From a virus, in IMG/VR virus record IMGVR_UViG_3300027779_000047, positions 1 through 46,957 of that record: DNA of 46,957 nucleotides. One strand, written 5' to 3'. The notes below the pieces were generated by a model. That model saw only the letters and a program-made list of their open reading frames with translations, ran no database searches and was not told the DNA's origin. How positions within the stretch are numbered: position 1 is the first letter of the stretch; the number at the start of each line of letters is the position of its first letter. Position numbers and translations under genes: made by a program. Positions 13,235 through 17,478 of this stretch are shown piece by piece.

Positions 13235-13643
13235 TATTCCCAAAGACAGCATATCGTCTACACCAATAGTAGAAGCAGATGAAGAGCTGGCAGAAGAATC
13301 TCAAAAAACGCCAGAAGAACCAAAAGTGGAAGGTCAACTAAACCAACCTCAAGTTGGTGCCTTTGTGGTACACAGACCAACTCTATGCGGGGATGCTGTC
13401 TCAATAATGACGGGAATTGATAAGAATTCTAAAGAAGAACCTGTTGCTTTTTGGACTGATGCTCAATATGGACATAAGGTTATGATGCTTCGTAATGATG
13501 AGACTAAGACTGTTAGTATGATTGAATGGCCTAGGCCTGAGATTGCTTGTTTTATATCAGTTGGTACTGATTCTATGATGAAACCAGCTGAAGATGTTGG
13601 ACAGAAAGTAGTTTATAAAAGGGACTTGACATTTGCACCTTGA
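13173..13643 (+). CDS. Lipoprotein of unknown function
   Basis: 156 aa. The signal peptide ends in the lipobox LMGC with Cys16. A Glu- and Pro-rich linker (about 30-60) leads to a small folded domain with three cysteines (LCGDAVSIMTG, EIACFISVG). The 3' end overlaps the promoter of the tmRNA (13626). Fourth lipobox protein in the window. No family recognised. Confidence 0.65.
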   Translation: MKHLIAIWAVFLLMGCQTNNNIPKDSISSTPIVEADEELAEESQKTPEEPKVEGQLNQPQVGAFVVHRPTLCGDAVSIMTGIDKNSKEEPVAFWTDAQYGHKVMMLRNDETKTVSMIEWPRPEIACFISVGTDSMMKPAEDVGQKVVYKRDLTFAP

Positions 13644-13656
13644 TATGGTATAAATA
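13626..13656 (+). promoter_or_regulatory. tmRNA promoter, combined early and late motifs
   Basis: TTGACA (13626-13631), 17 bp, TATAAA (13649-13654), the latter forming part of a full T4-late-type TATAAATA (13649-13656). The tmRNA acceptor piece follows about 20 nt downstream. The same combination occurs on the minus strand at 39263-39233. It could allow expression in both phases. Confidence 0.65.
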
Positions 13657-13737
13657 GTATACAATTTGATGATACGAATTGAAAGCTGAACTGGACGAGG
13701 GGGCAGTACCCTCCGCCTCCACCAAAAGGAGACTAGA

Positions 13738-13794
13738 ATGCTAGAGATATTGTTAGGGGATTCTGATGAAGACCCCCTTAGTACGAGAGGTTAG
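13738..13794 (+). CDS. Micro-ORF in tmRNA spacer (18 aa)
   Basis: MLEILLGDSDEDPLSTRG, preceded by a strong site (aaaaggagactaga). It lies wholly in the segment between the tmRNA acceptor and coding pieces. The good ribosome site makes translation plausible; function unknown. Confidence 0.3.
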   Translation: MLEILLGDSDEDPLSTRG

Positions 13795-13801
13795 TAAGTG
13801 G

Positions 13802-13882
13802 ATGTTTAAAGCATATATCGTTTGGAGTATATGTGCTGACATTACCCTACTAGCGGGTTTAATATACCTAGTCTTTTTTTGA
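13802..13882 (+). CDS. Membrane micro-ORF in tmRNA spacer (26 aa)
   Basis: MFKAYIVWSICADITLLAGL begins a peptide that forms one transmembrane helix ending VFF. Its TGA ends 1 nt before the 5' end of the tmRNA coding piece (13884). The ribosome site is weak (GAGAGG about 13 nt upstream). It may be translated before the precursor is processed. Confidence 0.3.
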   Translation: MFKAYIVWSICADITLLAGLIYLVFF

Positions 13883-14071
13883 TGGGGGCGAAATAGGATC
13901 GACAGGCAGAGATAGATGAGTGGAGAATTGTCGGATGACTCCGTTATTGGTCAAATTAGTAAATGCAAACGATAATATTGCATATGAGGATTTCGCACTA
14001 GCTGCGTAATCTGTCGGGGTTCGGGGAGTAACCTAGCAACAGAATACTCCCCACTTTATTCGTAAAGGGGG

Positions 14072-14100
14072 TTGACATATACATAAGACTATGTTATACT
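14072..14100 (+). promoter_or_regulatory. Early sigma70-like promoter
   Basis: TTGACA (14072-14077), 17 bp, TATACT (14095-14100), directly behind the tmRNA. It drives the HTH gene at 14216 through a leader of about 110 nt. Confidence 0.75.
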
Positions 14101-14139: not shown

Positions 14140-14194
14140 TGGAAGTTCTCTTGTAAAAACTTCACAATAAAAGTTGATGCTTTTTTCAACTTAT
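14140..14194 (+). promoter_or_regulatory. Two leader hairpins before the HTH gene
   Basis: GAAGTT pairs with AACTTC (about 14142-14163), and AAGTTGA pairs with TCAACTT further down (about 14171-14191), with a T-run in the second loop. They sit between promoter 14072 and the ATG at 14216 and could act in attenuation or as an autoregulatory site. Confidence 0.4.
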
Positions 14195-14215
14195 TTGTCA
14201 TGTAAAGGATATTTT

Positions 14216-14470
14216 ATGACTATTACTACCCAGGCCGCTAAGGTCGAAGCCGCACTCGTAAATGGTGCATCACTAACCGCTAAACAGATTACATCACGTT
14301 ATGGTGTTAAGAACGTCCGTTCGGTAATCAGCAAACTTCGTTCTGAAGGTCTTACGATCTATCTGAATAAGCGTGTGTCCACCTTTGATGGCCTATCGTA
14401 TATGAAGTACATGATTGGTACTCCTACACGAGCAGTAGTTGCAGCCGGTTACAAGGCGCTACGTGCTTAA
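14216..14470 (+). CDS. Small winged-helix-like DNA-binding protein
   Basis: 84 aa from the ATG after gtaaaggatatttt; the longer in-frame ATG at 14174 overlaps the second leader hairpin and is rejected. The core LTAKQITSRYGVKNVRSVIS (about 19-38) followed by KLRSEGLTIYLNKR is a typical helix-turn-helix plus wing, probably a transcriptional regulator. The C-terminus is rich in Ala and basic. Expressed alone from its own early promoter. Target unknown. Confidence 0.6.
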   Translation: MTITTQAAKVEAALVNGASLTAKQITSRYGVKNVRSVISKLRSEGLTIYLNKRVSTFDGLSYMKYMIGTPTRAVVAAGYKALRA

Positions 14471-14521: not shown

Positions 14522-14561
14522 GTAATGCCGTAATACATTCGGGTCATGCCGTAATACATGC
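14520..14561 (+). repeat. Tandem 21-bp repeat, two copies
   Basis: Two adjacent 21-bp units begin GGGTaATGCCGTAATACAT and GGGTcATGCCGTAATACAT and differ at two positions. A further CGTAATAC lies at about 14474-14481. Tandem sites of this size between a regulator gene and gp33 suggest an operator. Confidence 0.55.
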
Positions 14562-14563
14562 GA

Positions 14564-14598
14564 GTGGGGTCTATGGTTAACCCCACACTTTATTATTT
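14564..14598 (+). terminator. Probable intrinsic terminator
   Basis: GTGGGGT (14564-14570) pairs with ACCCCAC (14580-14586), followed by a T-rich stretch (TTTATTATTTT). It ends the HTH-gene transcript just before the gp33-like gene. Confidence 0.55.
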
Positions 14599-14614
14599 TA
14601 ATTGGAGAAGACTA

Positions 14615-14833
14615 TTGTCATTGAACACACCGAAAACTTTCGCTATCAAGATAGAAGAAGTTGTTAAAGAAAAAAAGATATCACATATGGATGCTGTCCT
14701 GTGGTATTGTGAGGATCAAGCAATTGAACCAGATTCGGTTAAGAGTTTAATCTCCAAAGCGTTGAAGGAAAAGATCGAAGCTAATGCTAGAGATTTGAAT
14801 TTCCTTCCCCGCCAGGCACAATTGCCAATATAG
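14615..14833 (+). CDS. 33: gp33-like late transcription co-activator
   Basis: 72 aa from a TTG start 7 nt after GGAG. The sequence VKEKKISHMDAVLWYCE, then IEPDSVKSLISKALKEKIE and NFLPRQAQLPI, matches my recollection of gp33 of cyano- and marine T4-like phages. T4 gp33 bridges the sliding clamp gp45 and host RNA polymerase with gp55 at TATAAATA late promoters. Position directly upstream of gp59 and gp32 equals the T4 order 33-59-32, and TATAAATA boxes are present in this window. Shorter than T4 gp33 (112 aa). Confidence 0.6.
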   Translation: MSLNTPKTFAIKIEEVVKEKKISHMDAVLWYCEDQAIEPDSVKSLISKALKEKIEANARDLNFLPRQAQLPI

Positions 14834-15055: not shown

Positions 15056-15236
15056 TCTATTACAGGCTATTATAGTATTATTACCAACGTACATTGTCGC
15101 CTATTTTACAGACAAGATGATATACGTTATTCCTATGTTGGCTGCATGTTCGTTTATTGCAGCCAGTTTATCTCCTGCTAGTGTGAGAAGTAGAGTTGAA
15201 GAAGATGGCTACCGAAAAGACGATGGAACCGATTGA
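15045..15236 (+). CDS. Two-helix small membrane protein (63 aa)
   Basis: Two hydrophobic segments (about 5-20 and 26-44) and a charged C-terminal tail (SRVEEDGYRKDDGTD). It overlaps both the upstream exported protein and the gp59 start by about 11 and 32 nt. Possible holin-type size and topology, but no direct evidence for that. Confidence 0.5.
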   Translation: MQNSLLQAIIVLLPTYIVAYFTDKMIYVIPMLAACSFIAASLSPASVRSRVEEDGYRKDDGTD

Positions 15237-15807
15237 CGTTTATTTGATGTATTGTGCATTGAAGGCTCATTTCGGCAAGGGTGATTACGACTACATCACC
15301 TATAAAGGTAAGACAAAGATCAAGAGAGAATCGTTCTATAAACGTAAAGATAGAGGTTTCTTCGCTCGTATATCTAAGAAGTATTCAAATCCACAGGATT
15401 ACTTTATAGCAAATTTCATCAAGGACAGAAGTGGCTATGTTGCTAACTTCACTGATGAACATTATCAATCGTGGAAATTAAAGAGACAAGGTTTCTTTGA
15501 AGAATTTTTAGTTGAACTACAACCCCTAATCAATGCCCCACCGTTTGACAATCTTTTTAAAGTTGAGGATGGCACTCATCCTAAGCTCTTGAAAGAATTT
15601 CTTGGTGGGCGTGTGTCTATAGAGACAGTAATTATATTAGATGAACTGGTTGGGTTCAGCGTAGAATGGGATCAAAAACTGAATGAGGATGTTATATGGC
15701 CTAACTTAAAAAAACTTATGAAAGATTACAAAAGGTTCTTGACAATTGATGTCAAGAGGTATAAACTAAAGCTATTGAAGTTGATAGAGGAGTCCAATCA
15801 TGGATGA
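15205..15807 (+). CDS. 59: gp59-like helicase loader
   Basis: 200 aa from the ATG at 15205 (a TTG at 15196 is possible); T4 gp59 has 217. The N-terminal domain shows YLMYCALKAHFGKGDYDY, TYKGKTKIKRESFYKRKDR and a following FFARISKKY, the HMG-like DNA-binding half of gp59. gp59 loads gp41 helicase on gp32-coated forks. Location between gp33 and gp32 agrees with T4, and both gp32 (20310) and gp41 (36582) are present. Confidence 0.8.
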   Translation: MATEKTMEPIDVYLMYCALKAHFGKGDYDYITYKGKTKIKRESFYKRKDRGFFARISKKYSNPQDYFIANFIKDRSGYVANFTDEHYQSWKLKRQGFFEEFLVELQPLINAPPFDNLFKVEDGTHPKLLKEFLGGRVSIETVIILDELVGFSVEWDQKLNEDVIWPNLKKLMKDYKRFLTIDVKRYKLKLLKLIEESNHG

Positions 15808-16030
15808 AAAAAATAAGGCCATTTTGGCCAAGACGGTCAGAGTCGAAGGGTTCTTTGAATCCAAGACTGCCGAACTTACAGCTCAAGTTTCGAAACTTGA
15901 GGGAGAGTGTGCTGAGTTGGTAGTTTCCAACAAAGAACTCTCAGAGCGTTGTGCTAAGTTAGCAACACGCCATCCTACGTGGCCGCAAGGTTATAAACCA
16001 CGTAAGTATGTGAATAACGGAAGTCGATGA
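15800..16030 (+). CDS. Small coiled-coil protein (76 aa)
   Basis: It overlaps gp59 by 8 nt. A central coiled coil (FESKTAELTAQVSKLEGECA and the following ELVVSNKELSERCAKL, about 19-54) precedes a basic Pro-rich tail. Its end overlaps the halogenase start by 4 nt (ATGA), so it is the first member of the overlapping chain that continues to 20276. Role unknown. Confidence 0.55.
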   Translation: MDEKNKAILAKTVRVEGFFESKTAELTAQVSKLEGECAELVVSNKELSERCAKLATRHPTWPQGYKPRKYVNNGSR

Positions 16031-17478
16031 CAACTGTTGTTGTAGTCGGTGGTGGTACAGGAGGCGCACTAACGTGTGGCCTCCTTGCTACTAATGGTTA
16101 TAATGTTATATCTGTACGTAGTGTAGATATACCTATAATTGGTGTAGGTGAAAGTTCTACTCCACCACTCGTAGCCGCATTAAATCGTATGGGTATTGCC
16201 AAGGAGTTTGTTGAATCAAATAATTGTTGGCCAAAATACGGTGTTGTCTTTGAAGGTTGGGGTGATACTCCAATGGTTGGTGGATGGCCTGTTAACGGTA
16301 GACGTAATGAATGTATTACCTACCTAGAGGGTTTAACGAGAGGCGAAGAGATAGGTCGTATCGGTAGTGAAGTCATAGATGGCAAGATGCCGTATATGGA
16401 AGAAGCTGATAGGTTCTATACTACTATAGCATTGCATATAGATTCTACTGATACATCTGAGTTTATATTTGATAAGTTTAAAGATAAGATACAAACTGTT
16501 TATGGTAATGTTGTTGATGTCCAAAAGGGCTCACAGGGTATTGACCATATACTAGTTGATAATACTGGCGCCAATGGCGGTGCCACAGTATTATCTGGAG
16601 ATTACTTTATTGATGCCACGGGGTTCAGTAGAGTGTTGATTAAAGAGATGACTGATTCCTTTATCCCGTCAGAGATACCAACGAACTCTGCTGTGTTTGG
16701 TGAGATAAAGAGATTAGATAAGGCGCCAAACGAGGTTTTGTTTGGATGGAATAGTATGATGACTACCGCTAAGACAGCGACTGCTGGGTGGATGTGGAAC
16801 ATACCACTGAGAGATAGATACGGTTCTGGGTATGTTTATAGTTCTGATTTTCTTACAGAGGAAGAGGCAGAGAAAGAGTTTTATGATTATAGTGGTTGTG
16901 AGAAGTTTGGGCATATGCATTATACGCCTGGATGGATGGCTGACCCAGCAGTAGGTAACTGTTTCGCAGTAGGTATTGCCGCTGGATTTTTAGATGCTTT
17001 GGACTCTCCGTCTATTGGATTGACCGTACTACATATTATGAGTTTCATGAGGAATAAGGAAACGCCCCATAAACACAATAAGTACTGTTCTGGTGCATTT
17101 AATGAGTTAGAAGAATACCTCTTAATGCACTATAAAACCTGTAATAGAACTGAAGCATTTTGGAAGAGCTTCACTCACTTTACAGAAGAGGAAATGAAAC
17201 TAAGATTTGTGATGGCAATAAATTCTAAGGATTGGGATGATAGGTCTGTTAGTGGATTCACTAATAGTGCCACTGCTAGAATTATTACACACAGAATGAA
17301 AATCGATGAAGACTATGCTAGTATGATATATGAGAATATACCTCAAGCAGAACGAGATCAAGCAAAGATTCAATGGATCATGGCTAGAGATCAATTCGTA
17401 CCATTTTCATACGAACTGTTTACACGGCACGTATTGGAATCAACTAACATCAAAGAAAGAGAAGGACAGTTTAGATGA
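16027..17478 (+). CDS. Flavin-dependent halogenase (tryptophan halogenase family)
   Basis: 483 aa. FAD-binding GGGTGG at 8-13 and the GVGESSTPPL segment (39-48) are followed by the candidate catalytic lysine Lys70 in CWPKYGVVFEGW, equivalent to Lys79 of PrnA by position. The family hallmark WxWxIP is present as WMWNIP (255-260). Such enzymes use FADH2, O2 and halide to halogenate an aromatic substrate. A cyanophage member (VirX1) is known to halogenate varied substrates. It needs a flavin reductase, none of which is seen here. ATGA overlaps link it to ThyX. Substrate unknown. Confidence 0.85.
   Translation: MTTVVVVGGGTGGALTCGLLATNGYNVISVRSVDIPIIGVGESSTPPLVAALNRMGIAKEFVESNNCWPKYGVVFEGWGDTPMVGGWPVNGRRNECITYLEGLTRGEEIGRIGSEVIDGKMPYMEEADRFYTTIALHIDSTDTSEFIFDKFKDKIQTVYGNVVDVQKGSQGIDHILVDNTGANGGATVLSGDYFIDATGFSRVLIKEMTDSFIPSEIPTNSAVFGEIKRLDKAPNEVLFGWNSMMTTAKTATAGWMWNIPLRDRYGSGYVYSSDFLTEEEAEKEFYDYSGCEKFGHMHYTPGWMADPAVGNCFAVGIAAGFLDALDSPSIGLTVLHIMSFMRNKETPHKHNKYCSGAFNELEEYLLMHYKTCNRTEAFWKSFTHFTEEEMKLRFVMAINSKDWDDRSVSGFTNSATARIITHRMKIDEDYASMIYENIPQAERDQAKIQWIMARDQFVPFSYELFTRHVLESTNIKEREGQFR

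Follow-up and report, generated by a model that had tools for sequence, protein, structure and literature searches.

A probable small membrane-protein gene in the spacer of a phage two-piece tmRNA gene

Introduction

We describe in this study a phage two-piece tmRNA gene, in which the spacer between the two RNA pieces probably doubles as the gene of a small membrane protein. The gene is located in a stretch of viral DNA of 46,957 nucleotides, herewith referred to as the window. Two-piece tmRNA of a phage has already been published for the Methylophilales phage Melnitz EXVC044M (MZ577097.1), together with a survey of 402 tmRNA-bearing phages, in which 53 two-piece forms were counted among 133 unique tmRNA structures (PMC9004378). 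The same paper describes the marine bias of two-piece phage tmRNA and a riboswitch, proposes ribosome recycling and the tagging of host products as roles of phage tmRNA and, in the passages on this point, notes the preference of marine phages for two-piece tmRNA without explanation. The word 'intervening' is absent from its main text; the tmRNA database paper of 2025 names the intervening sequence, and no word starting with 'ORF' occurs in it (PMC11915505). In the passages of both papers that deal with it, the spacer of permuted tmRNA is treated as an excised part and not as a protein site. Among the matches listed in the open-access literature (titles and beginnings of abstracts), no spacer-coded proteins were found. 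As far as searched, the coding spacer appears to be an undescribed variant, for which sequence evolution provides strong support; the spacer ORFs were also absent from the earlier reading of this DNA, made from the sequence only.

Results

The tmRNA gene of the window and its phage

After cmscan analysis, two Rfam models were found to match over the full model length, alpha_tmRNA (RF01849; 137.4 bits, E 1.5e-37, with the gathering score of 50), which is the best of the tmRNA clan, and tmRNA_permuted (RF04321; 122.6 bits, with the gathering score of 47). The order is permuted, the 3' acceptor half ending at 13724 upstream of the 5' coding half starting at 13884, and all 7 positions of the acceptor stem are paired between the two halves in the window sequence, with a G-U at 3-70 (for details see Table 1). 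G3-U70 is the identity element for alanine. The tag ANDNIAYEDFALAA has a hydrophobic end followed by a stop. A complete permuted tmRNA at this place, its full pairing between an upstream acceptor half and the coding half, and its complete tag frame had all been proposed by the sequence-only reading and are confirmed, with matches of both models in the Infernal check that it had suggested; its description of the T-loop GGCAGTA as unusual was mistaken, because the alpha_tmRNA consensus at this position is GGCgGUA. The roles that it put forward, ribosome recycling and tagging of host products, are those already suggested in the Melnitz paper. ARAGORN reported no tmRNA anywhere in the window. The gene is, as judged from this predicted anatomy, a phage-encoded two-piece tmRNA gene and a new member of an already published kind, for which cleavage into two base-paired RNAs and action with SmpB in trans-translation are predicted. 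In the promoter-like sequence ahead of the tmRNA, the second hexamer is at the same time the start of TATAAATA, the late-promoter word of T4 type (TATAAAT in the methods of PMC9004378); this promoter is omitted by the promoter scan, since the scan requires T as the last base of the -10 hexamer.

Table 1. Features of the tmRNA locus and its neighbourhood in the window.
Feature	Position	Strand	Basis or remark
Circularly permuted tmRNA gene, complete	13622-14053	+	Rfam alpha_tmRNA, whole model length
Promoter-like TTGACA-17-TATAAA	13626..13654	+	by eye; ahead of tmRNA
tmRNA acceptor piece	13661..13724	+	cmscan alignment, sequence
T-arm of acceptor piece, loop GGCAGTA	13697-13713	+	cmscan alignment, sequence
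3' acceptor strand CGCCTCC, then A73 and CCA	13714-13720; CCA 13722-13724	+	cmscan alignment, sequence
Spacer (intervening sequence), 159 nt	13725..13883	+	between CCA and GGGGGCG; predicted to be excised from the precursor
5' strand of 12-bp helix extending the acceptor stem; holds AAGGAG of ORF1	13725..13736	+	pairs with 13868-13879
ORF1, 18 codons, overlaps ORF2	13738..13794	+	ribosome site AAGGAG directly after CCA
ORF2, 38 codons, MKTPLVREVSKWMFKAYIVWSICADITLLAGLIYLVFF	13766..13882	+	one predicted membrane helix; stop UGA 13880-13882
3' strand of spacer helix; encodes last four ORF2 residues	13868..13879	+	helix pairing, fold
tmRNA coding piece, begins GGGGGCG; GGGGGCGAAATAGGATCGAC...	13884..14053	+	cmscan
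Tag reading frame ANDNIAYEDFALAA and stop	13965..14009	+	translation
gp33-like late-transcription coactivator	14558..14833	+	resembles Melnitz protein by eye; order as in Melnitz
T4 gp59-type DNA helicase loader	15196..15807	+	phrog_269, E 2.2e-56

The tmRNA is set among phage genes. Matches to PHROGs were obtained for 8 of the 10 window proteins scanned, including PhoH (phrog_170), exonuclease (phrog_298), the thymidylate synthase ThyX (phrog_85) and ssDNA-binding protein (phrog_224), which lie near the tmRNA together with the helicase loader, itself about 40% identical to the loaders of cyanophage S-CAM8 and Melnitz. The gene order is shared with Melnitz, i.e., PhoH, PDDEXK nuclease, tmRNA, late-transcription coactivator, helicase loader, ThyX and ssDNA-binding protein, with other genes interspersed. 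The PHROG matches, the loader identity, the likeness of the coactivator and this gene order together identify the window, at the level of predicted genes, as DNA of a T4-like marine phage. A tryptophan halogenase gene was also noted in the window at 16027-17478 (phrog_2928, E 7.2e-65). Directly after the tmRNA, a sigma-70-like promoter with 11 of 12 matches (14072-14100) precedes a phrog_4973 protein with no assigned function (14174-14470).

Melnitz carries the same alpha-type permuted tmRNA with the same promoter words ahead of it, but differs in two respects: its spacer ORF (MFKWLSK..., stop at +42) belongs to another family, herein family D, and not to that of ORF2 (family A), and a glutamine riboswitch is located downstream of its tmRNA, whereas none was detected at E up to 1 in the window between 13700 and 14300. 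The Melnitz GenBank record holds no coding feature inside the tmRNA, the family D ORF being unannotated. By blastn against 50,697 phage records, the window tmRNA matched only the four Melnitz strains. Among other tmRNA loci used as queries against the phage records, one (L095) matched only Melnitz, one (L157) matched the Sinorhizobium jumbo phage Phosso, and two (L376 and L018) gave no match. In Phosso (PV764938.1, locus L484), a permuted tmRNA that lacks annotation spans 314-916. Its spacer, about 410 nt long, by eye appears structured rather than coding and includes a segment complementary to the coding piece at its 5' end; no ORF was recognised by eye in this spacer, and ARAGORN found nothing at the locus.

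A constrained reading frame in the spacer

From the tmRNAs of RF01849 and RF04321, the window differs in having a coding spacer of 159 nt, compared with the median of 35 nt for the bacterial control described below. Of the two overlapping ORFs in this spacer, ORF2 has its stop 1 nt short of the position where the mature coding piece starts. Its AlphaFold model from single-sequence input is one helix of residues 4-37 (mean pLDDT 92), and the Kyte-Doolittle maximum for 19 residues is 2.1. Neither a PHROG nor a Pfam family above the cut-off was found for ORF2; DUF2542, considered as its family, was set aside with a score below the Pfam cut-off. By tblastn against the 50,697 phage records, neither ORF2 nor the protein of family B (see below) gave any match.

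The relatives of ORF2 were chosen with the motif Y..W.ICAD in loosened form, and the WS.CAD that the 67 proteins share is itself, when loosened, the search motif. Two scans of viral contigs, of which the best 80 of 279 coding stretches and the best 80 of 115 were used, yielded together with the pattern loci 90 distinct untruncated contexts with these 67 distinct proteins. Among the matches listed, 70 of the 90 contexts have the ORF stop exactly 1 base ahead of a tmRNA coding piece, and the other 20 do not. The embedded contexts with enough upstream sequence were selected by the ORF and blind to acceptor pairing; an acceptor was found in all of them (67/67), and 7 of 7 acceptor pairs in 66 (the exception is L201). 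The tag ends with AA in 68 of the 70 embedded relatives.

The ratio pN/pS of ORF2 was 0.147 for 36 distinct embedded viral sequences over 38 codons, against 1.21 and 2.65 for the other two forward frames of the same sequences, a constraint that need not lie at the protein level in the last four codons, which are in the spacer helix, or in about the first eleven, which overlap ORF1; for codons 17-35, of which only the last is in the 12-bp helix, the ratio was 0.22. With the free copies included (75 distinct stretches of the first 35 codons), it was 0.287, against 0.54-1.60 for the other five frames.

In the 20 free contexts, the C-termini differ by eye from the spacer forms in 16, and the ribosome-site start for the overlapping ORF1 is kept in 18. 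In 58 of 68 embedded and 10 of 20 free contexts, ORF1 begins 28 nt ahead of ORF2, while the non-overlapping codons 2-9 of ORF1 are unconstrained (pN/pS 0.94). ORF1 is probably a coupling leader that brings ribosomes to ORF2, and not a selected protein. Of the two selected products that a toxin-antitoxin pair would have, constraint was found for ORF2 and not for codons 2-9 of ORF1.

One relative (L229, 2842-3322) carries a family A gene inside a tmRNA for which the best model of the clan, the only one shown by the tool, is beta. The sequence-only reading had taken the permutation to indicate an alphaproteobacterial source; in the window the best-scoring model is indeed alpha, but the beta-type tmRNA of this relative, with the same spacer gene, points to the exchange of tmRNA bodies or of spacer genes. 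In 385 alphaproteobacterial genomes no family A match was obtained, which is uninformative as the search had no positive control. At four loci (L186, L195, L234 and L237), an extra ORF was observed ahead of the family A module, in the spacer or the upstream stretch.

Paired ends of the spacer

The two ends of the window spacer pair over 12 bp and so lengthen the acceptor stem (Table 1); of the 504 cells of this helix counted over 42 distinct family A spacers, 492 are paired. The fold with this helix in the window was calculated as -81.5 kcal/mol with z of -4.5. In this register, the first spacer bases pair with the bases ending four before the coding piece. For 111 viral spacers of at least 30 nt, the fraction paired among the first eight positions was 0.892 in this register, against 0.35-0.63 when slid, and for 85 bacterial spacers of this length it was 0.765 against 0.28-0.54. 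Among 76 distinct viral spacer ends (spacers of at least 100 nt), the pairs vary among A-U, U-A, G-U, G-C and C-G. The pairing in register by varying pairs indicates that spacers retain this predicted clamp while their contents get replaced.

Spacer ORFs in other phages

As an ORF-blind sample, two coding-piece pattern scans of viral contigs gave at least 171 loci, for which 137 distinct permuted tmRNAs were obtained by the pairing rule; most of the contigs are fragments, and some may be bacterial. The viral spacers have a median of 94 nt, and 65 of the 137 are at least 100 nt long. We counted an ORF as a boundary ORF if it had a ribosome site, a minimum of 20 codons and a stop in the range from -15 to +45 around the boundary between spacer and coding piece. 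Boundary ORFs were found in 41 of the 65 long viral spacers, against a mean of 6.2 and a maximum of 16 in 200 runs of shuffling, and after removal of family A in 26 of 50, against a mean of 4.0 and a maximum of 9; a stop at this place follows in part from the sequence, as the boundary UGAUGGGGGCGAAAUAG itself gives stops in two of three frames, and in the shuffles the downstream stop was kept and the UGAU scrambled. Of the 24 long spacers without a boundary ORF by the criteria set, several by eye seem to contain an ORF with a different start context, which is not the case for others.

As the bacterial control, one pattern scan gave at least 118 loci and 112 distinct tmRNAs. A ribosome-site ORF of at least 20 codons was found in 8 of the 112, and one that ends at the boundary in a single case. 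The contrast between viral and bacterial tmRNAs is mainly one of spacer length, because the bacterial spacers are short (median 35 nt; at least 100 nt in 3 of 112). In 20 further bacterial stretches with long spans or from small genomes, of which 14 were readable, the spacers were shorter than 30 nt in 10 and 74-181 nt in 4. One of these four (L474) gave a boundary ORF of 57 codons, where the acceptor is probably misplaced, a second acceptor-like stretch being located inside. For 11 loci with the cyanobacterial-type pattern, no matching acceptor was found up to 600 nt upstream (one of them is clipped by the locus end).

The spacer ORFs of other phages show no recognisable relation to ORF2. Family B (MDEV..W..R....ICINNYS..HARL) was found at 73 loci, 46 scored as adjoining the coding piece, 3 more by eye and 24 free-standing; its pN/pS was 0.207 for 23 sequences, against 1.3 for the other forward frames, and its match to mREase_IV (E 0.0079) was taken as chance. 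Family D, of the Melnitz type, lies in the spacer at all 13 loci, and its constraint is weak (pN/pS of 0.31, against 0.53 and 0.82 for the other frames, for 8 sequences). Single longer spacer ORFs have 65-120 codons. No match was obtained for ten spacer ORFs against PHROGs, none above the cut-off for eight proteins against Pfam, and no confirmed relative in a search of viral contigs for family C. Some individual loci were also noted: a spacer ORF of 68 codons at L093 scored 22.3 bits with DUF2061, just under the cut-off of 23.1; the 499-nt spacer of L018 has two ORFs, of 34 and 120 codons; and in three viral tmRNA-like loci (L075, L087 and L117) the tag frame extends to 25 residues (ANDNALSNVTFV...), no stop occurring within the stretch read.

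Discussion

The interpretation that we favour, and consider probable, is that of a phage two-piece tmRNA gene with a spacer doubling as a small membrane-protein gene. It draws directly on the tmRNA anatomy, the constraint on the spacer ORF, the paired spacer ends, the recurrence of unrelated ORFs and the occurrence of the module outside tmRNA. A single transcript starting from about 13661 would run from the acceptor half through the ORF1-ORF2 module into the tag-coding half. Ribosomes would enter at ORF1 during synthesis or before cutting, and the overlap would pass them to ORF2, of which the product would be a 38-residue membrane protein with a single helix and a role in the membrane during infection. 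Translation would end at the UGA of the common UGAU ahead of the RNase P site. After departure of the ribosomes, the spacer ends would form the 12-bp helix continuous with the acceptor stem, and host tRNA-processing enzymes would cut at CCA and GGGGGCG, leading to the working two-piece tmRNA. Because the spacer would be discarded, small genes could be kept there at little cost to the tmRNA, and lineages differ in the ORF placed there.

Two arrangements described in the 2025 tmRNA database paper come close. In tmRNA with a group I intron, a protein gene likewise lies within a removed tmRNA segment, but that segment is a self-splicing intron of the T-loop with a LAGLIDADG gene (PMC11915505), whereas the present case concerns a permuted gene, in the spacer of which the encoded proteins are small and unrelated. 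A permuted tmRNA with tRNA-Ala in its spacer also has a nested gene, but this is one archaea-binned case of an RNA gene (PMC11915505), in contrast to the protein genes of many phage contigs in this study.

According to a different explanation, the ORF would be there mainly for regulatory coupling, its translation delaying or sensing the maturation of the tmRNA: the spacer helix and the cleavage site would be held open by a ribosome at the final codons, and, where the stop lies inside the coding piece, the RNase P cut would make a nonstop message to be rescued by the same tmRNA. This is based on the stop classes. Among 91 boundary ORFs (a pooled set with families A, B and D over-sampled), 50 stop at -1, 19 at +13, 10 at +42, 2 at +33 and 10 further upstream; a stop at -1 would survive removal of the coding piece, while the 31 located downstream of the cut would be lost. 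The window clamp covers the last ORF2 codons and, in favour of such coupling, the ORF1 ribosome site, but in the pooled set the scored ribosome site lies wholly inside the clamp in only 7 and partly in 21, and occlusion is therefore not general. Free family A copies have a tmRNA in the same DNA in 11 of 20 cases (fairly 7 of 16, without the four loci fetched via the tmRNA pattern), against 2 of 20 scanned among the 24 free family B loci, a comparison weakened by unequal flank lengths and related contigs. The presence of unrelated ORFs, in contrast, suits a harbour for genes better than a sensor, and we regard coupling as the main purpose of the ORF as unlikely. Starting from the same stop classes, the membrane protein and the tmRNA might constitute one functional unit, in which translation and maturation would be mutually exclusive for each transcript, the peptide being made first and the rescue RNA after; for families that stop only within the coding piece, a nonstop spacer message would then arise through maturation itself and be silenced by the tmRNA. 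We put this forward as a speculation, of which we are doubtful.

A mobile or selfish small gene without benefit to the phage could also have settled in the spacer, in a way comparable to the homing-endonuclease genes in tmRNA introns. The variety of unrelated ORFs would fit, as would the occurrence of families A and B both inside and outside spacers. On the family A tree (114 columns, with the first ten codons of L021 omitted for the alignment), 4 switches between embedded and free copies are needed, and at least 3 when judged by the starred branches; the tree is weak, as 22 of 73 inner branches are starred. The spacer of L237 with its extra ORF points in the same direction. Against such an origin, however, no nuclease or transposition family was found for the ten ORFs in PHROGs or the eight proteins in Pfam, and the small proteins are under purifying selection, so that a selfish origin seems to us improbable. 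Insertion of a homing endonuclease was rejected for ORF2, in which no nuclease domain was found by PHROGs or by Pfam above the cut-off. That the window has an ordinary phage tmRNA, with a spacer ORF representing a chance frame or RNA structure alone, is very improbable: ORF2 is indeed short, the spacer ends are constrained by pairing and some boundary ORFs arise by chance (a mean of 6.2 in 65), but the low pN/pS is confined to the ORF2 frame among the forward frames and includes codons 17-35, the 67 proteins are distinct, the free copies mostly have other C-termini, and the excess over the shuffles persists without family A.

If the spacer is a routine home for small genes, conserved small proteins would lie unannotated in widespread marine phages, including the cultured Melnitz. 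Every transcript would then be both a message and the precursor of a rescue RNA, and the coding spacer would bear on the question of why two-piece tmRNA is favoured by marine phages.
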